From Streptosporangiales bacterium (GTDB lineage Bacteria; Actinomycetota; Actinomycetes; Streptosporangiales; WHST01): DNA of 64,000 nt. The notes under the pieces were generated by a model. The model did not search any database and was not told the DNA's origin. It saw nothing but the letters and a program-made list of their open reading frames with translations. Within the stretch, counting starts at the first letter, position 1. Each line of letters starts with the position of its first letter. Below are positions 2,618 through 13,116 of this stretch, piece by piece. Location of the stretch: NCBI GenBank assembly GCA_009379955.1, contig WHST01000002.1, forward strand, positions 1-64,000, given 5' to 3'. A program made the position numbers and the translations under genes.

Positions 2618-2763
2618 GGGAGACCCCTCGTCGAGACGTTGTGCCGTGGTCGACGCTACGGGGGTACCGGCGCCATCCGCATCAGGTTTCGGCCGTACGG
2701 CGACACGCCGGGCGACCGCTGGGGTTCGCTGCGGCCAGGACGTGGCGGGGATACTCGGTGATC

Positions 2764-4233
2764 ATGTCGGAACGTTCAGGGGGATCCGGGGGGATCGGGA
2801 AGGGGAGGCGCGGGGGATCCGAGGGCGGGTCGTCGCGACGGTACGAGAGTACGAGCCGCACCTACGGACGGCCGAGGCCGGACCAGGGAAAGCGCGGCGA
2901 CGTCGCGTTCCGGCGGGCCCTCGTCGTCACCCTCCTCTCCGTCATCGCTCCCGGCAGTGGGCACCTCGCCCTGCGCCGCCACGGCGTCGGGCGGCCGGTG
3001 CTGCGCACGTACCTGATCCTCGTGGCCGCCGGCGTGCTCGCCGCGATCTTCGTGCCCAGGTCGTGGTGGCTCGCGCTCGCGTTCAAGCCGTGGGTGCTCG
3101 GCGCGCTGCAGGTGGCCGCGGTCGTCGTCGGCGTGCTCTGGGTCGCGGTCGTACTGCATGCCTTCGCGCTGGCCAGGCCCGGGCAGATCGTCGCGTCGCG
3201 CCGCGGCGTCGCGGTCGCGATCGCGCTCGTCCTCTGTGCCGGCATCCTCGCGCCGTTCGGGGTCGCGTCGCGGTACGCCGGCGTGCAGCGTGACCTCGTC
3301 ACGAGCATGTTCCCCGAGGAGGGCACGGGGCCGAAGGGACGGATGAACGTCCTGCTCATCGGCGGCGACGCGGGCAAGGACCGGGTCGGCGTCCGCACCG
3401 ACAGCATGATCGTGGCGAGCGTCGACCTCGCCACCGGTCGCACGGTGCTGATCAGCCTGCCGCGCAACCTGCAGCACGTGCCGATGCCGGAGGGCCCCGC
3501 GCGCGACCGGTTCCCGAACGGCTTCGACGACCTGCTCAACGCGGTCTACAAGTACGGCGAGGAGCACCCCAAGGTCGTACCGGGCTCACGGCACCCCGGT
3601 CCCGACCTCCTCAAGCAGACGGTCGGCGGCGTCCTCGGCATCCCCGTGCACTACTACCTGCTCGTCAACCTCAGGGGATTCCGGCAGATGGTCGATGCGC
3701 TCGGCGGCGTCACCGTCACGGTCAAGGAACGGCTGCCCATCGGCGGCGAGGGCGGGCCCGTCACGGGGTACGTGCAGCCGGGGCGGCGCAAGCTGACCGG
3801 GCTCGAGGCGCTCTGGTACGCCCGGTCGAGAGCGGCGTCGAGCGACTACGACCGGATGGCCAGGCAGCGCTGCCTGATCAGTGCCGTCGCCGAGCAGGCC
3901 GATCCCGCCAACGTGCTGCTGCGATATCAGAAGCTCGCGGCGGCGAGCAAGGAGCTCTTCGCGACCGACATCCCGCAGAACGTCATGAGCTCGCTGACCG
4001 GTGTCGCGGAGAAGGTCAAGACGCACAAGATCAAGAGCCTCGCCCTGGTGCCACCGCTGATCGATACGTCCGACCCTGACTGGGGCCTGATCAAGCGCAG
4101 GACCGACAAGGCGATCAAGGCGTCGATGAAGGACCCGAAGCCGAGGAGCGGAGACCCCACCCCGGCCGGCTCGAAGGACCGCGCGACACCGAAGCCCGAT
4201 CGCTCGGTCTCGCCGTACGCGTCCTGTGATTAG
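2764..4233 (+). CDS. LytR-CpsA-Psr (LCP) family cell-wall glycopolymer ligase
   Basis: About 489 residues. A cytoplasmic, Gly/Arg-rich N-terminus (about 45 residues) is followed by three to four membrane helices. The LCP catalytic domain starts at MNVLLIGGDAGKDR and runs through RTDSMIV and SLPRN to the late YARSRAASSDYDRMARQR motif, which holds the conserved arginines that bind the pyrophosphate lipid. LCP enzymes transfer teichoic-acid-like or arabinogalactan-type polymers from undecaprenyl carriers to peptidoglycan. ATG 2764 was chosen because the ORF before it does not look like protein; GTG 2758 is an alternative. It opens the envelope-glycan region and is divergent from the erm-type gene. 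Confidence 0.88.
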   Translation: MSERSGGSGGIGKGRRGGSEGGSSRRYESTSRTYGRPRPDQGKRGDVAFRRALVVTLLSVIAPGSGHLALRRHGVGRPVLRTYLILVAAGVLAAIFVPRSWWLALAFKPWVLGALQVAAVVVGVLWVAVVLHAFALARPGQIVASRRGVAVAIALVLCAGILAPFGVASRYAGVQRDLVTSMFPEEGTGPKGRMNVLLIGGDAGKDRVGVRTDSMIVASVDLATGRTVLISLPRNLQHVPMPEGPARDRFPNGFDDLLNAVYKYGEEHPKVVPGSRHPGPDLLKQTVGGVLGIPVHYYLLVNLRGFRQMVDALGGVTVTVKERLPIGGEGGPVTGYVQPGRRKLTGLEALWYARSRAASSDYDRMARQRCLISAVAEQADPANVLLRYQKLAAASKELFATDIPQNVMSSLTGVAEKVKTHKIKSLALVPPLIDTSDPDWGLIKRRTDKAIKASMKDPKPRSGDPTPAGSKDRATPKPDRSVSPYASCD

Positions 4234-4567: not shown

Positions 4568-6019
4568 TCAGCCGCCGCACGGGCCCGCGGCGGTGACGCT
4601 GAGGGCGTCGTTCTCCGAGACGCCGGGCTCGGCGTTCTTCACGTAGTTCACCTGGCGCACGCCGGAGTACGAGCGGCCGACCACGACACGCATGGTCGAG
4701 CTCTTGGTCTTCGTGACCGCGAGCTCCGCTCCGGGGATCGCCGCCTGGAGGGTCCTGGCGTGCTTCTCGTGCGCGGCGTCGTGGTAGATCGTGGTCGTCG
4801 AGCTCTCCTGATCGGCGTTCGACGGCGCACCCTTCATCCGGAACCCGACGCCGCGCAGCTCCTCGGTCGCCTTACCGGCGAACCCCTCGATGCCCGCGCC
4901 GTTCTCCACCCGGACCGACACCGAGCCCGGCCGCAGGGGCACCGGCGCGGGAGTGAACAGGGACGGGTCGATCCGCGAGTCCTTGCCGAGCTCCTCGAAG
5001 AGGTAGGTGGTGAGCTGCGACTGCCACGTCGTGACGGTGCCGTCCTTGGTCTTCTTGGTCTCGTCGACGGGCACGGACACGATCGAGGTGCGGTCGCCGT
5101 ACGGGTCGCGCAGGGCGAGGGCGACCCGGCGCGCGAGCGCGCGGTCGAACCCGTCGTCGACGCGGAGCGCGGCCGCCCCCTCGTCGAGCAGCTGGGTCGC
5201 CTGCCACGGGGTGAGCACGGCGGTCGCCCCGAACAGCCGCTCCGCCGCGGCGCCGAACAGCAGCTGCGTGCGACGGAGGCGGTCGAGCGAGCCGCCCGCG
5301 GTCGTCCGGGCGTAGGCCGCCGCCTGCTCGGCCGTGATCGTCTGCTCGCCGGGTGCCATGCGCAGCTTCGCTGCCTTGTCCTCGACCGTCTTGGGCAGGC
5401 ACAGCTCGATGCCGTCGAGCGCCGCGACGACGTCGGTGAGGGCCGGCAGCGAGAGCTCGACGTAGCCGTCGATCCTGATCTTGGTGACGGTCTCGAGCGA
5501 CTGGACGAGCAGGGCGGGCCCGCCGTCCTCGTACGTGGCCGCCAGCGGGCGCTTGCTGGCCCCGACGTCCTTGCCGCGGAAGTCGCGGTGGGGCGGGACG
5601 TCGACGAGCGAGTTGCTCGGCAGGTCGATGAGCACGGTCGAGTCATGTCGCCGGGACAGGTGGACGAGCGCCAGGTGGCTCAACCGCCGGTCGGGCAGTG
5701 CCTTCTCGTCGGCGGACTCGCCCTTCTCGTCATCGGCCTTCTCGTCGACGGGGTCGTCGGTCGCGGCGAAGAGGATGTCGACAGACCCGTTCGCGGTCTG
5801 CGGGGGCCTGGTGTCGATGTCGCCCAGCGAGCCGACCCGTTCGACGCCGGCGTCGGCGGCCGCGTTGACGCTCCACAGCACGCCACTCGCGGCCACGACC
5901 AGTACCGAGACACTACCGACCACGAGGGCGGCGATCGTCGCGCTGCCCCCGCGCACCCCCCGGATGCTGGCGAGCGTCCTGCGCGCCCGCGCCAGCACCT
6001 CCCGTATGAAGCTGGCCAT
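4568..6019 (-). CDS. LCP family protein with C-terminal LytR_C domain
   Basis: About 483 residues. One membrane helix lies near residues 20-45 (TIAALVVGSVSVLVVAASG). The LCP domain follows: SVDILF, LIDLPSNSLVDVP, and the late ARTTAGGSLDRLRRTQ motif. A LytR_C domain (SVSVRVENGAGIEGFAGKA onward, about residues 365-460) comes after it. The LCP domain carries an unusual acidic insertion (DEKADDEKGESADEK). The family attaches glycopolymers to peptidoglycan; LytR_C may bind the wall. Starts ATG 6022 and ATG 6019 are adjacent after GGAGG; 6019 has the better spacing. It is divergent from the GT2 gene at 6083. Confidence 0.85.
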   Translation of the reverse strand: MASFIREVLARARRTLASIRGVRGGSATIAALVVGSVSVLVVAASGVLWSVNAAADAGVERVGSLGDIDTRPPQTANGSVDILFAATDDPVDEKADDEKGESADEKALPDRRLSHLALVHLSRRHDSTVLIDLPSNSLVDVPPHRDFRGKDVGASKRPLAATYEDGGPALLVQSLETVTKIRIDGYVELSLPALTDVVAALDGIELCLPKTVEDKAAKLRMAPGEQTITAEQAAAYARTTAGGSLDRLRRTQLLFGAAAERLFGATAVLTPWQATQLLDEGAAALRVDDGFDRALARRVALALRDPYGDRTSIVSVPVDETKKTKDGTVTTWQSQLTTYLFEELGKDSRIDPSLFTPAPVPLRPGSVSVRVENGAGIEGFAGKATEELRGVGFRMKGAPSNADQESSTTTIYHDAAHEKHARTLQAAIPGAELAVTKTKSSTMRVVVGRSYSGVRQVNYVKNAEPGVSENDALSVTAAGPCGG

Positions 6020-6082
6020 CATGCTTCCTCCCGGCGAGGGCCATCGTAGATGACCGAGGTGTCCCGGTATCGTGCGTGCCCC

Positions 6083-7129
6083 ATGAACGAACACGCGAGT
6101 GTCGAGCCGAACTGGCCGCCGGTCTCCCTGGTCATGCCCGTCCTCAACGAGGAGCGGCACCTGCGCGAGGCGGTCGAGGGCGTCCTGGCGCAGCACTACC
6201 CGGGCGACCTCGAGGTGGTGCTCGCGCTGGGCCCCTCCCGCGACCGGACCGACGACGTCGCCGCCGCGCTGGCGGCCCTCGACGAGCGCGTCCGGGTGGT
6301 CGACAACCCCGCCGGGCATACGCCGCACGCGCTCAACGCCGCCATCGCCGCGGCGAAGCACGACGTCATCGTCCGGGTCGACGGCCACTCCGTGCTGCCC
6401 GACGACTACGTGCGCACCGCGGTGTCCGTGCTCCTCGAGGCCGGTGCCGACAACGTCGGCGGGCTGATGGCGGCGGAGGGCACCACGGACTTCGAGCGAG
6501 CGGTCGCGGCCGCGATGTCGTCGCGGATCGGCGTCGGCGCGACGCAGTTCCACACCGGGGGAGCCGACGGTCCGGCGGAGACGGTGTACCTCGGCGTGTT
6601 CCGGCGGTCGGCGCTCGACCGGGTCGGCGGCTACGACGAGGCCTTCCACCGTGCCCAGGACTGGGAGATGAACCACCGGATCCGCGAGACCGGCGGACTG
6701 GTCTGGTTCACGTCGAGGCTGAAGGTCGCCTACCGGCCACGTGCGACCTTCGCCGCGCTCGCCAGGCAGTACTTCGACACCGGGTCGTGGCGCTGGCAGG
6801 TGATGGTGCGGCACCCCGAGACGGTGTCGCTGCGCTACCTCGCGCCGCCCGCGGCCGTCGCGGGTACGGCGGCGGCGCTCGGCCTCGCCCTCGCGGGCCG
6901 CCGGTGGGCGCTCGTCGTGCCGGTCGCGTACGCGGCCGCGGTCGTGGTGGGTGCCGCCGTCACCGGACGCGGCCTCCCGCCGCGGGGCAGGGCGATGCTC
7001 CCCGGGGTCTATGCGACCATGCACTACGCCTGGGGCGCCGGCTTCCTGAAGGGCGTCGCGGCGTCCGCGCTGTCGCGAGACCGCCGGAGGCAATCAGTAC
7101 TGGACCGGGTGCGCCGCCGCCGCAGGTAG
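6083..7129 (+). CDS. Glycosyltransferase family 2, ExoA-like, with C-terminal membrane helices
   Basis: 348 residues. The GT-A domain begins with VSLVMPVLNEERHLREAV. The nucleotide-sugar motifs are VRVDGHSVLPDDY (a DxD-like DGH) and the later RAQDWEMNHRI, the ED/QDWE catalytic-base region. Two membrane helices at about residues 255-300 anchor it. It resembles succinoglycan-type ExoA glucosyltransferases acting on a lipid-linked sugar at the cytoplasmic face. The ATG 6083 start lacks a ribosome-binding site. It ends one base before the convergent CDP-alcohol phosphotransferase. Confidence 0.85.
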   Translation: MNEHASVEPNWPPVSLVMPVLNEERHLREAVEGVLAQHYPGDLEVVLALGPSRDRTDDVAAALAALDERVRVVDNPAGHTPHALNAAIAAAKHDVIVRVDGHSVLPDDYVRTAVSVLLEAGADNVGGLMAAEGTTDFERAVAAAMSSRIGVGATQFHTGGADGPAETVYLGVFRRSALDRVGGYDEAFHRAQDWEMNHRIRETGGLVWFTSRLKVAYRPRATFAALARQYFDTGSWRWQVMVRHPETVSLRYLAPPAAVAGTAAALGLALAGRRWALVVPVAYAAAVVVGAAVTGRGLPPRGRAMLPGVYATMHYAWGAGFLKGVAASALSRDRRRQSVLDRVRRRRR

Positions 7130-7130
7130 G

Positions 7131-8057
7131 TCAGTCGGTCTCCGTCAGCCGGTCGGTGTCGGCCGGAGTGGCGTACGACGCGATGGCGCGGTCGAAGTCC
7201 CTGATGCTGAGCCAGAGCTTGTAGACGAGCACGGCCTCGAACACCAGGAGCAGCGCCGCCGCCCCGATCATCACCGGGGCGACGAGCCCGGTGACGGGCC
7301 CGACGATGCAGACGAACATCTGGAACTCGATGCCGCTCCACAGGTGCGGTCGCATGCGGTGCCTGCGCAGGAAGTCACGGAACCTGTTGTAGAAGCGGAA
7401 CTTGCTGCGGAACCCCTGCTGCAGGTCGACGACGTTGCCCGACGCCGCCACCTCGTTCGGGTCGAGGTCGGGGTTCTCGGTGAGCACGTCCTCGATGAAG
7501 GGCAGCTGCTCGTCGACGTCGTCGTCGCCACGGGCGCGTGCCCCGCGCCGCGCCTCGGTGATGCGCGTGCGCATGTCCTCGCGCATCTTGTACGTGTGCG
7601 CCGAGTTGATGTAGCGCAGCGCGTCGACGAAGACGACGCACATGCCGATCACCAGGAACAGCGGGCGCTCCGTGAGGACGTACTGGCCGACGGTGAGCCC
7701 GAGGACGCAGAGGAAGATGCGGACCCGGTCGAAGATGAAGTCGAGCCACTGGCCGAACGTCGAGCCGGTGCCCTTGAGCCGCGCGATCTTGCCGTCGAGG
7801 CAGTCGATGTAGAACGCCAGGTAGAACAGCACTGCGCCGAGCACCAGCCACGGCCAGTCGCCGAGCAGGAAGACGCTTGCCGAGCCGAGCCCGACCACGA
7901 ACGCGACCAGGCTGAGCTGGTTGGGGGTGAGCCGGGTGTGGTTGGCGAGCAGGCGCACCACGGGGGCCGCGAGCGGGTCGACGAGGAAGACCGTCCACCA
8001 CGAGTCCCGCGCCTTGTAGGTACGTCGGACGTCGTCCGCCGAGAACGTGCCCGACAT
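7131..8057 (-). CDS. CDP-alcohol phosphatidyltransferase family protein
   Basis: 308 residues. The full family signature is present at residues 85-110: D85, D88-G89, A92-R93, G102, D106 and D110, as required for metal binding and for attack on a CDP-alcohol. Several membrane helices flank it. An extra soluble insertion of about 60 residues, rich in Arg/Asp, lies near residues 150-220. Such enzymes join a CDP-activated alcohol (diacylglycerol, glycerol, inositol) to a second alcohol with release of CMP. ATG 8057 has GGAAGG upstream; GTG 8096 is an alternative. It is divergent from the cytidylyltransferase gene, which may supply its substrate. Confidence 0.85.
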   Translation of the reverse strand: MSGTFSADDVRRTYKARDSWWTVFLVDPLAAPVVRLLANHTRLTPNQLSLVAFVVGLGSASVFLLGDWPWLVLGAVLFYLAFYIDCLDGKIARLKGTGSTFGQWLDFIFDRVRIFLCVLGLTVGQYVLTERPLFLVIGMCVVFVDALRYINSAHTYKMREDMRTRITEARRGARARGDDDVDEQLPFIEDVLTENPDLDPNEVAASGNVVDLQQGFRSKFRFYNRFRDFLRRHRMRPHLWSGIEFQMFVCIVGPVTGLVAPVMIGAAALLLVFEAVLVYKLWLSIRDFDRAIASYATPADTDRLTETD

Positions 8058-8158: not shown

Positions 8159-8890
8159 GTGCTTGGCATGATCCTTGCGGCCGGTGAAGGTCGTCGGCTG
8201 CGGCCGTACACGGAGAAGCTGCCGAAGGCCCTGGTGCCGGTCGACGGCGAGACCACGATCATGGACATCGTGCTGCGCAACATGGCCGCGGTCGGCCTGC
8301 GCGACGTCGTCGTGGTCGTCGGCTACGCCGCCGAGGCGGTCGAGGAACGCCGGCAGGAGCTGGAGTCGCGGCACGGTGTGCGCCTCACCCTCGTGCCCAA
8401 CGACAAGGCGACGCAGTGGAACAACTGCTACTCCCTCTGGCTGGCCAGGGAGTACTTCGCCGAGGGGGTGCTGCTCTCCAACGGCGACACGGTGCACCCG
8501 GTGTCGGTGGAGGAGACGCTGCTGTCCGCGCGGGGGCCCGGTGTGCTGCTCGCTCTCGACGACGCGAAAGCCCTCGCCGACGAGGAGATGAAGGTCACCC
8601 TCGACGGCTCCGCCCGCGTCTCCCGCATCACCAAGCAGATGGCGCCGAGCGACGCGCACGGTGAGTACATCGGCGTCACCCTGATCGAGCCGGCCGCCGC
8701 GCAGCCGCTCGCCGACGCGCTCGAGACGACGTGGCGACGCGACCAGGGTCTGTACTACGAGGACGGCTACCAGGAGCTCGCCGACCGCGGCGGCGACGTC
8801 CGTACCGCGTCGATCGGCACGGTGGAATGGGTGGAAGTCGACAACCACGACGATCTGGCTCGGGCACGGGAGATCGCATGCCGCTGCTAG
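8159..8890 (+). CDS. Sugar/alcohol-phosphate nucleotidyltransferase, LicC-like (CTP type)
   Basis: 243 residues. N-terminal MILAAGEGRRLRPYTEKLPK is the nucleotidyltransferase signature GxGxRxxxxTxxxPK. WNNCYSLWLARE and the metal-binding LLSNGD that follows are typical of cytidylyltransferases of the LicC / inositol-phosphate type. It should make a CDP-activated alcohol from CTP and an alcohol phosphate. The start is GTG 8159 (leaderless) or ATG 8168. The end overlaps the next gene by 13 bp, so coupled expression with the dehydrogenase is expected. Confidence 0.83.
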   Translation: MLGMILAAGEGRRLRPYTEKLPKALVPVDGETTIMDIVLRNMAAVGLRDVVVVVGYAAEAVEERRQELESRHGVRLTLVPNDKATQWNNCYSLWLAREYFAEGVLLSNGDTVHPVSVEETLLSARGPGVLLALDDAKALADEEMKVTLDGSARVSRITKQMAPSDAHGEYIGVTLIEPAAAQPLADALETTWRRDQGLYYEDGYQELADRGGDVRTASIGTVEWVEVDNHDDLARAREIACRC

Positions 8891-9951
8891 CGCGCATGGT
8901 CATGAGTCCGCTCGTCGTCGAGGTGCGCCCGGGAGCGGTGGCCGGCCTCGCGGACGTGCTCGCCGACCAGCGGATCTCGCCGAACGGTGTCGTCGCGGTC
9001 GTCGTCGGCGGCGGCCTCGGCGACCGGATCGCCGAGGAGCTGTCGCACACCCTCGGCAACGCCGACGTCTTCCTCGCGGCCGACGGCACCCTCGACGTCG
9101 CCGCCGAGATCGAGGTCGGGTTGCGCAAGCGGTCGTACGACGCCGTGGTGGGGATCGGCGGCGGCAAGACGCTCGACGTCGCCAAGTACGTCGCCAGCCG
9201 GCTCGGACTGCCGATGGTGGCCGTCGCCACCAGCCTCGCCCACGACGGCATCTCCTCGCCGGTGTCGAGCCTCGACCACGGCGGCGGCCGCGGCTCGTAC
9301 GGCGTGCACATCCCCGTCGCGGTGCTCGTCGACCTCGACTACGTGCGGGCCGCGCCGGCGCGGCAGGTCAGGTCGGGGGTCGGCGACCTGATCAGCAACC
9401 TCTCGGCGACGGCCGACTGGGAGCTCGCCAGGGAGGTCCGCGGCGAGCCGGTCGACGGGCTCGCCCTGTCGCTGGCCCGGGTGGGCGCCGACGCCGTGCT
9501 GAACCGTACCGACGGCATCGACTCGGATGCCTTCCTCGTGGTGCTCGCCCAGGGCCTCATCCTGTCCGGGCTCGCGATGGCCGTCGCGGGCAACAGCCGG
9601 CCGTGCAGCGGCGCCTGCCACGAGATCTCGCACGCGCTCGACCGGATGTCTCCCGGCTCGGGCACCCACGGCGAGCAGACCGGCTTCGGTGCGCTCTTCG
9701 CCACCTGGCTGCGTGGCGACCTCGACCTCGCCGGCGCGATCCACGGCTGCCTGCACCGGCACGGCCTGCCGACGCGACCGGCCGACCTCGGCCTGACCGA
9801 CGACGCGTTCGCCGCCGCGGTGGCGAACGCACCCGACACCAGGCCGGACCGCTATACGGTGCTCGAGCACCGCGAGGTCGACGCCGACCGTGCGGTCGCG
9901 TGGACGCGCGAGTTCGTGGCCTGGGCGGCGCGGCGTGAGGAGACCCGGTGA
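8878..9951 (+). CDS. Glycerol-1-phosphate dehydrogenase-like iron/zinc-containing alcohol dehydrogenase
   Basis: 357 residues of the AraM/EgsA-like branch. The NAD(P) motif is VGIGGGKTLDVAKYVA; metal ligands are seen as the Asp of GVGDLISNLSATADW, the His of CHEISHALD, and the His of GTHGEQTGFG. This matches sn-glycerol-1-phosphate dehydrogenases, which reduce dihydroxyacetone phosphate. Its position between a CTP-type nucleotidyltransferase and a CDP-alcohol phosphotransferase suggests it makes the alcohol phosphate that is then activated as a CDP derivative. The substrate could be another ketose phosphate. The start ATG 8878 overlaps the previous gene; ATG 8896 is an alternative. Confidence 0.83.
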   Translation: MPLLARMVMSPLVVEVRPGAVAGLADVLADQRISPNGVVAVVVGGGLGDRIAEELSHTLGNADVFLAADGTLDVAAEIEVGLRKRSYDAVVGIGGGKTLDVAKYVASRLGLPMVAVATSLAHDGISSPVSSLDHGGGRGSYGVHIPVAVLVDLDYVRAAPARQVRSGVGDLISNLSATADWELAREVRGEPVDGLALSLARVGADAVLNRTDGIDSDAFLVVLAQGLILSGLAMAVAGNSRPCSGACHEISHALDRMSPGSGTHGEQTGFGALFATWLRGDLDLAGAIHGCLHRHGLPTRPADLGLTDDAFAAAVANAPDTRPDRYTVLEHREVDADRAVAWTREFVAWAARREETR

Positions 9952-9999
9952 CGGGGCCGTACGCTGTCCCTCGCCTCGCACCGACCAGACCATGAGGAC

Positions 10000-10779
10000 G
10001 TGACCGTCATCAGCCCACTCGAGGCCTCGCCGGCGCAGATCCGCGAGATCGCGCAGCCGCCGGGGATCATGGACCGGCGCAGCGGCGAGCACTGGGCGGG
10101 CCGGCTGTACATGCGCCGCCTCTCGCCGTACGGCACCTGGCTGCTCGTCCGCACGCCGATCACGCCGAACGTGACCACCGGCCTGATGATCGTCGCCGGC
10201 GTCGCCGGCGGCGTCGTGCTGGCCCTCGGCGGGCTCTGGTCGGCGGTGGTGGCGGCGCTGCTGATCCAGCTCTACCTGCTGCTCGACTGTTCCGACGGCG
10301 AGCTCGCCCGCCTCACGGGACGGACGAGCATCGTCGGTGTCTACCTCGACCGGGTCGGCCACTACCTCGCCGAGGCCGCTCTGCTGGTCGGGCTGGGCAT
10401 CAGGGCCCAGGGCGAGCTCACCGGCGGCTGGGCGCAGCTCGGCGCGCTCGCGGCGCTCGGCGCGATCCTCATCAAGTCCGAGACCGACCAGGTCGACGTC
10501 GCGCGCATCAGGTCGGGCCTGCCGGCCGTCACCGAGGAGGCCGCGGAGCTGCGCAGCAGCCGGCTGGGCACGCTGCGCAGGATCGCGTCGCTGTTGCTGG
10601 TGCACCGCGTGATCCAGGGCATCGAGGTGTCGCTGCTCGCCGTCGTCGCGGCGGTCGTCGACGTCGTCACCGGCACTCTGGTGGGCACCCGGGTGCTGGT
10701 CGTCGCGTGCGTCCTGGTGGCGGGAGCGTTCGTGGTCCTCCACCTGATCAGCGTGCTGATGAGCAGGAGGCTGCGGTGA
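10000..10779 (+). CDS. CDP-alcohol phosphatidyltransferase-like protein with altered catalytic motif
   Basis: 259 residues with about five membrane helices. The family motif is at residues 96-121: D96, D99-G100, A103-R104, G113 and D117, but the fourth position (the proposed general base Asp) is His121, codon CAC at 10360-10362. The first part MDRRSGEHWAGRLYMRR is an amphipathic N-terminus. It should transfer a phospho-alcohol from a CDP carrier to a lipid or sugar, if active. It overlaps the following GT2 gene by four bases (GTGA), so both are probably made from one mRNA. Confidence 0.82.
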   Translation: MTVISPLEASPAQIREIAQPPGIMDRRSGEHWAGRLYMRRLSPYGTWLLVRTPITPNVTTGLMIVAGVAGGVVLALGGLWSAVVAALLIQLYLLLDCSDGELARLTGRTSIVGVYLDRVGHYLAEAALLVGLGIRAQGELTGGWAQLGALAALGAILIKSETDQVDVARIRSGLPAVTEEAAELRSSRLGTLRRIASLLLVHRVIQGIEVSLLAVVAAVVDVVTGTLVGTRVLVVACVLVAGAFVVLHLISVLMSRRLR

Positions 10780-11639
10780 ACGACGTCACGCTCTCGTGCG
10801 TGATCCTGACCATGGGTGACCGCCCGGGGGAGCTGCGCCGCGCGATCGACAGCGTCCGCGCCCAGCACGGCGAGCCGATCGAGGTCGTCCTGGTCGCCCA
10901 GGGCGCCGACGTCGACGACGTCCCCGACGACGTCACGTACGTCCGGCTACCTGAGAACGTCGGCCTGCCCGAGGGCCGCAACCGCGGTGCCGCCCGGGCG
11001 ACGGGCGACGTGGTGCTGTTCCTCGACGACGACGGCTGGTACCCGGAGCCGACGCTGGCCGACTGGGTCAGGGCGAGGTTCGCCACCGACCCTCGCCTCG
11101 GCATCATGTCGTTCCGCATCGTCGACGAGGAGGGCCGCAGCGCCCGCAGACACGTACCGAGGCTGCGGGCCGGCGACCCGATGCGGTCGGGCCAGGTGAC
11201 CACCTTCCTCGGCGGCGGCAGCGCCGTGCGGCGCGAGACGTTCGAGCGGGTCGGCGGGCTGCCGGGGGAGTTCTTCTGGACGCACGAGGAGACCGACCTC
11301 GCCTGGCGGGTGCTCGACGCGGGCTACCGGATCGTGTACGACGCGCGCGCGGTGATGGCCCATCCGCGCACGAGCCCGGCGCGGCACGCGAACTACCTCC
11401 GGATGAACGCGCGCAACCGGGTGTGGCTGGCCAAGCGCAACCTCCCGCTGCCGCTCGCGGTCGCGTACGTGGGGGACTGGTTCGCCGTCACCGTGGTGCG
11501 GGAACGCAGCGTCACGGCACTGCGTCCGTGGCTCCGTGGTTTCGCCGAGGGACTCCGTACGTCTGGAGGGCCGCGCCGGCCGATCGCCTGGCGTACCGCC
11601 TGGCGGATGGCCAGGCTCGGTCGCCCACCGGTCATCTGA
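10776..11639 (+). CDS. Glycosyltransferase family 2 (rhamnosyl/galactosyl-transferase-like)
   Basis: 287 residues from GTG 10776, overlapping the upstream stop codon (GTGA), with AGGAGG just before. GT-A features: LSCVILTMGDRPGELRRAI, LPENVGLPEGRNRG, VVLFLDDDGWY (DxD) and FFWTHEETDLAWR, the EETDLAWR region containing the catalytic base. There is no clear membrane anchor, so it is a peripheral cytoplasmic enzyme. Being last in the cytidylyltransferase-dehydrogenase-phosphotransferase row, it probably adds a sugar to the same phospho-polyol product. Confidence 0.87.
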   Translation: MNDVTLSCVILTMGDRPGELRRAIDSVRAQHGEPIEVVLVAQGADVDDVPDDVTYVRLPENVGLPEGRNRGAARATGDVVLFLDDDGWYPEPTLADWVRARFATDPRLGIMSFRIVDEEGRSARRHVPRLRAGDPMRSGQVTTFLGGGSAVRRETFERVGGLPGEFFWTHEETDLAWRVLDAGYRIVYDARAVMAHPRTSPARHANYLRMNARNRVWLAKRNLPLPLAVAYVGDWFAVTVVRERSVTALRPWLRGFAEGLRTSGGPRRPIAWRTAWRMARLGRPPVI

Positions 11640-11769: not shown

Positions 11770-12174
11770 GTGACCCAGCAACCCGGATGGAGCGACCCGC
11801 AGGGTGATCCCGGCGGTACCTCCCCGCAGTGGCACGACCAGCCGCCGGCCGACCAGGCGGGCTACGGCCAGCAGCAGTATGGTCAGCCACAGCCGTACGG
11901 CCAGGGCTACGGTCAGCAGCAGCCGATGTACACGTACCCGCCCTCGCGGCCCACCAACATGATGGCGATCCTCGCGCTGGTGTTCTGCTTCGTCTTCGCG
12001 CCGGTCGGGTTGATCCTCGGCATCATCGCGCGCAGGCAGATCGAGGAGACCGGTGAGGAGGGGCACGGGCTCGCTCTCGCCGGCACCATCATCGGCGCGA
12101 TCTTCACCGGGTTCGGCGTTCTCTACGTCGTCGTCGTCGTGATCGCCGTGGTGGCGTCCGCGTCGGCGGTATGA
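11770..12174 (+). CDS. DUF4190 domain membrane protein (copy 1)
   Basis: 134 residues from GTG 11770, with GAGGAG 8 bases upstream. The Gln/Pro/Tyr/Gly-rich cytoplasmic N-terminus (about 55 residues, GYGQQQYGQP-type repeats) is followed by two membrane helices: MMAILALVFCFVFAPVGLILG and the GTIIGAIFTG region. Between them is the conserved GxxARRQIEETGEEGxGLA loop. DUF4190 proteins are common small actinobacterial membrane proteins with unknown roles. Two further copies follow. About 130 bp upstream (11640-11769) hold no gene and only a weak TATCAT. Confidence 0.85.
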   Translation: MTQQPGWSDPQGDPGGTSPQWHDQPPADQAGYGQQQYGQPQPYGQGYGQQQPMYTYPPSRPTNMMAILALVFCFVFAPVGLILGIIARRQIEETGEEGHGLALAGTIIGAIFTGFGVLYVVVVVIAVVASASAV

Positions 12175-12206
12175 ACAACGAGCGATCGACCGAGGGGATG
12201 GACCAG

Positions 12207-12632
12207 GTGACTCAGCAACCCGGATGGAGCAACCCGCAGGGCGACCCCGGCGGCGCCTCCCCACAGTGGTACGACCAGCCGCCGGCGGACCAGCCGGGCT
12301 ACGGTCAGCAGCAGTACGGCCAGCAGCAGTACGGCGAGGTACAGCAGTACGGCCAGGGCTACGGTCCGCAGCAGCCGATGTACGTCTACCCGCCCTCGCG
12401 GCCCACCAACATGATGGCGATCCTCGCGCTCGTCTTCTGCTTCGTCTTCGCGCCGGTCGGGTTGATCCTCGGCATCATCGCGCGCAAGCAGATCAGGGAG
12501 ACCGGTGAGGAGGGGAACGGGCTCGCTCTCGCCGGCATCATCGTCGGCGCGATCTTCACCGGCCTGATCGTGCTGTACATCCTCTTCTACGTCGTCCTGT
12601 TCGGGATCCTGTTCGCCACGACCGGCGTGTAA
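12207..12632 (+). CDS. DUF4190 domain membrane protein (copy 2, recent duplicate)
   Basis: 141 residues. Its start GTG 12207 follows GAGGGG and matches the start context of copy 1; ATG 12198 and ATG 12171 (overlapping the previous stop) are alternatives. The protein repeats copy 1 almost exactly through the first helix and the ETGEEGxGLALAG loop, with one extra QQYG-type repeat. The second helix and C-terminus differ (LFYVVLFGILFATTGV). The DNA identity over the helix region shows a recent tandem duplication. Confidence 0.85.
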   Translation: MTQQPGWSNPQGDPGGASPQWYDQPPADQPGYGQQQYGQQQYGEVQQYGQGYGPQQPMYVYPPSRPTNMMAILALVFCFVFAPVGLILGIIARKQIRETGEEGNGLALAGIIVGAIFTGLIVLYILFYVVLFGILFATTGV

Positions 12633-12641
12633 GGTTCTCCT

Positions 12642-12661
12642 CGGCGGGAGCGGGCCCGCCG
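12642..12661 (+). terminator. Possible hairpin after DUF4190 copy 2
   Basis: CGGCGGG (12642-12648) and CCCGCCG (12655-12661) form a 7-bp GC stem with a 6-nt loop. There is no U-tract. It may end or attenuate transcription between the second and third DUF4190 genes. Confidence 0.35.
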
Positions 12662-12690
12662 TCTCACGACCAGGTGGGGATGTCGCGCTC

Positions 12691-13116
12691 ATGACGCAGC
12701 AGCCGGGGTGGAACGACCCTCAGACGCAGCCGTACGGCCAGGCAGGTGCCCCGATGGGGCAGCCGCAGCAGTACGGCCAGGTGCAGCCGTACCAGGCCCC
12801 GGCGTACCAGACGCCGATGGTGATGCAGCCGATGCCGACCTTCCAGGTCAAGGCGGCGAACAACACCATGGCGACCTGCTCGCTGATCTTCGCGCTCGTC
12901 GGCCTGATCTTCTTCCCGATCCTCGCCCAGATCCTCGCCCTGATCTTCGGCATCGTGGCGAAGGGCCAGATCAAGCGCACTGGTGAGGGCGGCGCGGGCA
13001 TGGCGACCGCCGGCATCATCATCAGCTCGATCATCCTGGGTCTCGCGGTCATCGGCACGATCTTCTGGATCGTGGTCGTCGTGATCCTGGGCGCCGCGGG
13101 CGTCGCGGCCAGCTGA
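12691..13116 (+). CDS. DUF4190 domain membrane protein (copy 3)
   Basis: 141 residues beginning MTQQPGWNDPQ, the same opening as the two copies before it. The N-terminus is rich in Gln, Tyr and Pro (QPQQYGQVQPYQ), then two helices around residues 58-85 (CSLIFALVGLIFFPILAQIL) and 105-135. The loop is KGQIKRTGEGGAGMATAG. It is the most diverged copy, with longer hydrophobic parts. The three genes form a small paralogue array; the function is unknown. Confidence 0.85.
   Translation: MTQQPGWNDPQTQPYGQAGAPMGQPQQYGQVQPYQAPAYQTPMVMQPMPTFQVKAANNTMATCSLIFALVGLIFFPILAQILALIFGIVAKGQIKRTGEGGAGMATAGIIISSIILGLAVIGTIFWIVVVVILGAAGVAAS

Follow-up and report, generated by a model that had tools for sequence, protein, structure and literature searches.

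Gene row with a G1PDH-type dehydrogenase

The stretch of DNA analyzed here, positions 1 to 64,000 of contig WHST01000002.1 of a Streptosporangiales bacterium (hereafter the window), carries on its forward strand a row of four genes, the second of which encodes a homologue of sn-glycerol-1-phosphate dehydrogenase (G1PDH). The row comprises a nucleotidyltransferase predicted to be a LicC/IPCT-like CTP:polyol-phosphate cytidylyltransferase (8159-8890; hereafter the NTP transferase), a G1PDH-type dehydrogenase predicted to convert dihydroxyacetone phosphate (DHAP) into sn-glycerol-1-phosphate (8878-9951), a homologue of CDP-alcohol phosphotransferases with His in place of the catalytic Asp termed D4 (10000-10779), and a family 2 glycosyltransferase (GT2; 10776-11639; Glycos_transf_2 at 66.5 bits). 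All four reading frames are open, and their order and coordinates are those given in a preliminary description of the window. The first two genes overlap by 13 bp, a gap of 48 bp follows, and the last two genes overlap by 4 bp; this spacing is operon-like.

The product of the second gene had been described as an AraM/EgsA-like dehydrogenase, and both model scores and the predicted structure back a protein of the G1PDH type. The Fe-ADH_2 domain of Pfam matched with 105 bits (cut-off of 28), and the NCBIfam model of G1PDH (NF002022) matched with 248.8 bits (E-value of 7.2e-74), as compared with 60.8 bits for the glycerol dehydrogenase model. The SRPxSG...H...H motif is present, and the candidate metal ligands, of which the roles are assigned by alignment only, are near-invariant (D170) or invariant (H248 and H264). 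The AlphaFold model (pLDDT of 92.8) was closest to the solved folds of 3ce9 and of the Methanocaldococcus jannaschii G1PDH with NADPH and DHAP. A profile built from 18 homologues matched the M. jannaschii enzyme with approximately 240 bits and 9h4x, Bacillus subtilis AraM according to the label in the fold search, with 154 bits. The assignment to the G1PDH type is well supported by these sequence and model comparisons, and glycerol-1-phosphate as the product is a reasonable inference from them.

The NTP transferase, of which the start codon is GTG at 8159, bears the NTP_transferase domain (43.9 bits against a Pfam cut-off of 21.2), and NTP_transf_3 also scored above its cut-off. Its best match among solved structures was LicC (1jyk; E-value of 6.5e-16), and the motifs LAAGxGxRLxPxT..LPK, NNxYSxW, and NGDTVHP are near-invariant across 83 homologues. 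No equivalog cut-off was reached among the NCBIfam matches listed for this protein (25 families). The nucleotidyltransferase noted earlier beside the dehydrogenase is thus retained as a LicC/IPCT-like enzyme paired with G1PDH, and the use of CTP is predicted from its sequence.

Distribution and conservation of the row

G1PDH was detected in 200 of the 201 genomes of the order Streptosporangiales, to which the window belongs, and its homologues in 37 of the 296 genomes sampled from the phylum; a scan of the collection yielded at least 580 coding matches. One genome of this order, G334, encodes in the region of the row proteins identical to those of Streptomonospora mangrovi (L094), which identified the order as Streptosporangiales. 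The NTP transferase gene was found immediately upstream of the G1PDH gene in 94 of the 99 G1PDH loci (83 with a member of the main NTP transferase cluster and 11 added by a profile), with a median spacing of 5 bp. With such a proportion in loci from many families, the arrangement is not due to chance. The pair was also retained, among other neighbors, in a clade sharing 38-45% identity with the window. The NTP transferase and G1PDH genes are the firmest unit of the row.

All four genes occurred together in each of the 28 Streptosporangiales loci read (in one of them with an intervening gene call), with the GT2 gene always downstream of the phosphotransferase homologue, and in most of the Streptomyces loci. 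The row is thus a core feature of Streptosporangiales and of Streptomyces. On the other hand, the members of Micromonosporaceae possess the NTP transferase and G1PDH with a different phosphotransferase and no GT2 of the row type. Together with a sister genome of the window (G297; see below), they rule out a fixed four-gene module across the phylum, in which the constant part is the NTP transferase-G1PDH pair. The question raised at the outset, whether the genes stay together in relatives, is accordingly answered in the affirmative within the order and in the negative phylum-wide.

Five loci carried no NTP transferase gene immediately upstream. Two of them, L107 and L112, hold extra G1PDH copies of Streptomyces (10040-11062) immediately upstream of rplU-rpmA-obg, and the complete row is present elsewhere in both genomes. 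Other surroundings of the pair were also observed. In a different actinobacterial family (L147, L148, and L150-L154), the pair adjoins genes for a DUF4012 protein, type I phosphodiesterase-like proteins, and a bacterial sugar transferase, and several of these loci also carry an intact CDP-alcohol phosphotransferase. A gene of the mannitol dehydrogenase family directly follows the pair in L145 (8495-11792). In the Streptomyces loci L182-L185 and L190-L191, squalene/phytoene-synthase-type genes follow the row and probably represent a hopanoid cluster, judging from one homologue scanned.

Two CDP-alcohol phosphotransferases

The preliminary description placed a further phosphotransferase and a further GT2 beside the row, and both were recovered. 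The former (7131-8057, reverse strand) matched the Pfam model with 55 bits, and the latter (6050-7129, forward strand) matched Glycos_transf_2 with 77.7 bits and belongs to a cluster, GT2B, found in 28 loci; this GT2 is retained in the neighborhood of the row in relatives. The signature of CDP-alcohol phosphotransferases, DxxDGxxAR...GxxxDxxxD, is complete in the 7131-8057 product (DCLDGKIARLKGTGSTFGQWLDFIFD). In the in-row homologue, which scored 20.9 bits, just below the Pfam cut-off of 22, the signature is incomplete; the fourth Asp is absent (DCSDGELARLTGRTSIVGVYLDRVGH), and the corresponding position is occupied by His in 39 and by Ala in 4 of 43 homologues. The two types of phosphotransferase found in the relatives, CPT_A and CPT_M, retain the Asp at D4. 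In this family, the fourth Asp is presumed to act as the catalytic base (PMC4634129, PMC6506517), and the D4N substitution nearly abolished the activity of PIP synthase (PMC4634129).

The predicted fold of the in-row homologue was nearest to AF2299 and IPCT-DIPPS, and AF2299 was also the best solved match for the 7131-8057 product (E-value of 8.5e-16), the gene of which occupies the same place in both sister genomes. Since the in-row homologue lacks the catalytic Asp, we attribute the transfer step to the neighbor on the opposite strand, which has the complete motif and is likely to be the transferase, and the assignment of this step to the phosphotransferase in the row is withdrawn. The D4-less protein may be either a variant relying on His or a partner without catalytic function, and its activity is uncertain.

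Sister genomes and envelope-related neighbors

In the sister genome G299, from the same genus, the genes are arranged in the order of phosphotransferase, NTP transferase, G1PDH, TagG, TagH, D4-less phosphotransferase, and GT2. The TagG/TagH pair lies in the row of both G299 and G297 (L135, 5987-7593; L178, 7540-9155), and in Nocardiopsis and Streptomyces such genes occur in the vicinity of the row. A TagGH-type exporter is therefore part of the row in the sister species and, being absent from the window, could not be seen in the window alone. In G297, the NTP transferase and G1PDH genes are both missing and the neighboring genes are retained; the rest of this genome likewise yielded no G1PDH. 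As TagG/TagH in the window and the NTP transferase and G1PDH in G297 are each missing as a pair, the presence of two functional units is supported. Past the row, three small genes with N-termini rich in Gln, Tyr, and Pro follow one another in the window (11770-13116), the first two encoding DUF4190 proteins, and similar small genes were seen at the matching position in the sister genomes.

Genes for LytR-CpsA-Psr (LCP) proteins, Glyphos_transf proteins, IspD-like proteins with or without a short-chain dehydrogenase domain, and GDPD proteins were found near the row in the relatives belonging to Streptosporangiales. LCP genes lay near the row in 15 of the 99 loci, and the window itself encodes an LCP protein (2758-4233, forward strand; PF03816 at 97.8 bits), a candidate ligase of a polymer to peptidoglycan. 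In L071, the row adjoins a gene (5300-6730) of which the product joins an IspD-like domain and a short-chain dehydrogenase; we take this fusion to resemble bifunctional CDP-ribitol enzymes.

Among 61 genomes of the order, none had a TagD scoring over the cut-off, and no TagD was matched in the window's own genome. PF04464, poly(glycerophosphate) glycerophosphotransferase, was detected in 60 of the same 61 genomes, and GGGPS (PF01884) in none of them, while the positive controls were detected. TagD and G1PDH did not overlap among the 296 genomes (13 with TagD and 37 with G1PDH); approximately 1.6 overlaps were expected by chance, so that mutual exclusion is not significant and was rejected. The gene surroundings and the pattern of TagD, PF04464, and GGGPS fit the supply of a CDP-polyol to an envelope polymer. 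The attachment to a surface glycan, suggested earlier, is in line with the envelope-glycopolymer genes around the row in relatives, and the product is a prediction.

Putative route to an envelope glycopolymer and its alternatives

Altogether, we tentatively propose, with somewhat less than even confidence, that the row leads from DHAP via sn-glycerol-1-phosphate and CDP-1-glycerol to an envelope glycopolymer. The G1PDH homologue would reduce DHAP to sn-glycerol-1-phosphate, as its family and fold suggest, and the NTP transferase would combine this product with CTP into CDP-1-glycerol. A membrane CDP-alcohol phosphotransferase with an intact active site (the 7131-8057 product in the window; CPT_A or CPT_M in the relatives) would next move glycerol-1-phosphate onto an acceptor that is either lipid-linked or a glycan. 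The GT2 enzymes may extend or decorate the polymer, the TagG/TagH-type ABC transporter would export it, and LCP proteins would join it to the wall. The analysis itself shows the gene content and its conservation, the pairing, the motifs, the predicted folds, and the neighborhood, and from them all substrates, the stereochemistry, and the final polymer are predicted.

Several observations weigh against this proposal. The dehydrogenase remains under the equivalog cut-off of NF002022 (248.8 versus 413 bits), and the residue preceding a metal-ligand His is Cys or Asp in the G1PDH clade of the window, as opposed to Glu in classical G1PDHs. The phosphotransferase of the row itself is the one devoid of D4. 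The window row has a 48-bp gap (9952-9999) in place of TagG/TagH, and the nearest TagG/TagH pair of the species is on another contig (C97; L179), with a TagH 36% identical to that of the sister. G297 retains the D4-less phosphotransferase and GT2 without the NTP transferase and G1PDH, and the in-row phosphotransferase and GT2 may thus use another donor. PF04464 gave a weak partial match in the window's own genome, and CDP-ribitol from IspD-like enzymes could be an alternative donor for the PF04464 proteins. Finally, the nearest genomes are draft assemblies, although each junction lies within one contig.

The score below the equivalog cut-off and the residue beside a metal ligand also favor the activation of another polyol phosphate (e.g., glycerol-2-phosphate or a pentitol or hexitol phosphate) by the NTP transferase and G1PDH for a similar envelope polymer, as do the mannitol dehydrogenase-family gene after the pair in L145 and the IspD-like enzymes near many loci, which suggest polyol-rich polymers. 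Nevertheless, every top match in sequence and fold was either a G1PDH, among them the M. jannaschii enzyme in complex with DHAP, or the closely related 3ce9, and the SRPxSG motif is retained. We regard another substrate as unlikely, albeit deserving serious consideration. The Glu-to-Cys replacement beside the metal ligand was also considered as the sign of a new substrate, and this idea was weakened by Asp occupying the position in 22 of the 99 homologues.

It is improbable that the row makes, instead of a polymer, a small phosphodiester of the kind found in Archaeoglobus or Thermococcales (e.g., glycerophosphoinositol or diglycerol phosphate). The IPCT-DIPPS model matched the NTP transferase and the phosphotransferases weakly (49.2, 43.6, and 45.9 bits), and both phosphotransferases are nearest to AF2299 and DIPPS, yet the TagGH exporter, GT2, LCP, and Glyphos_transf neighbors indicate an exported polymer, and the row is carried by ordinary actinobacteria, Streptomyces and Nocardiopsis among them. 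Even less credence is given to the joining of CDP-diacylglycerol with glycerol-1-phosphate or a related alcohol into an unusual phospholipid head group. The superfamily contains PIP and PGP synthases, and the PIPSynth and archaetidylinositol models were among the weak NCBIfam matches, but such a reaction needs no dedicated NTP transferase, the most constant partner in the row, and the predicted fold is nearer to the enzymes using soluble donors. The supply of G1PDH product to archaeal-type ether lipids via GGGPS, as for AraM in Bacillus and as proposed for Streptomyces, some of which were reported to have G1PDH, GGGPS, and DGGGPS together (PMC6431249), is scarcely credible and rejected for Streptosporangiales, given that GGGPS is absent from the genomes of the order searched and that the neighbors of the row are the NTP transferase and envelope genes.

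A broader version of the proposed CDP-1-glycerol route is rather doubtful: that hundreds of actinobacteria convert archaeal-handed glycerol-1-phosphate into CDP-1-glycerol, rely on the latter instead of TagD-made CDP-3-glycerol as their standard donor for an envelope polymer, and transfer it by paired catalytic and D4-less CDP-alcohol phosphotransferases.

If the proposed route is true, glycerol-1-phosphate and CDP-1-glycerol would belong to the core metabolism of Streptosporangiales and Streptomyces, contrary to the view, put forward in 2021, that the great majority of bacteria lack free glycerol-1-phosphate and that bacteria probably lack CDP-1-glycerol (PMC8262930). Bacterial G1PDH would gain a role beyond ether lipids, which bears on the argument over the "lipid divide," and a gene set would be at hand for an uncharacterized actinobacterial envelope polymer.

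Comparison with known systems

The preliminary description regarded the route as undescribed in actinobacteria. The synteny is on record for Streptomyces, in which the arrangement of araM, tagGH, and the genes for CDP-alcohol phosphotransferase, GT2, and NTP transferase was reported in 2026, with no pathway proposed in the available part of that paper (PMC13118837), and G1PDH of Streptomyces had earlier been tied to possible archaeal-type lipids (PMC6431249). The CDP-glycerol-1-phosphate route itself is not on record: no paper proposing a CDP-1-glycerol route or a glycerol-1-phosphate cytidylyltransferase was found in the open-access literature, the body of work searched as distinct from subscription papers. 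The Streptomyces region (PMC13118837) shares the same gene set, which we confirmed in Streptomyces loci, while its available part presents the synteny alone, without a CDP-1-glycerol pathway or analyses of the pair and the active site.

The window dehydrogenase shares the family, fold, and SRPxSG...H...H motif with EgsA and B. subtilis AraM, and differs from them in its score below the equivalog cut-off and in its partner, which is the NTP transferase instead of GGGPS. The TagD-TagF-TagGH system is similar to the proposed route in the logic of CDP-activated glycerol phosphate and in the TagGH-type exporter, LCP, and PF04464 proteins of the relatives. In contrast, the order has no canonical TagD, the route of the row would involve integral-membrane CDP-alcohol phosphotransferases, and the glycerol supplied through G1PDH and the LicC-like NTP transferase would be the opposite enantiomer. 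IPCT-DIPPS and AF2299, of the CDP-inositol/CDP-glycerol type in Archaeoglobus, likewise combine an NTP cytidylyltransferase with a CDP-alcohol phosphotransferase using a soluble donor and are the closest to the window phosphotransferases in fold and sequence; in the window, these functions are encoded by separate genes, which are accompanied by a dedicated G1PDH and placed in a neighborhood of polymer export.

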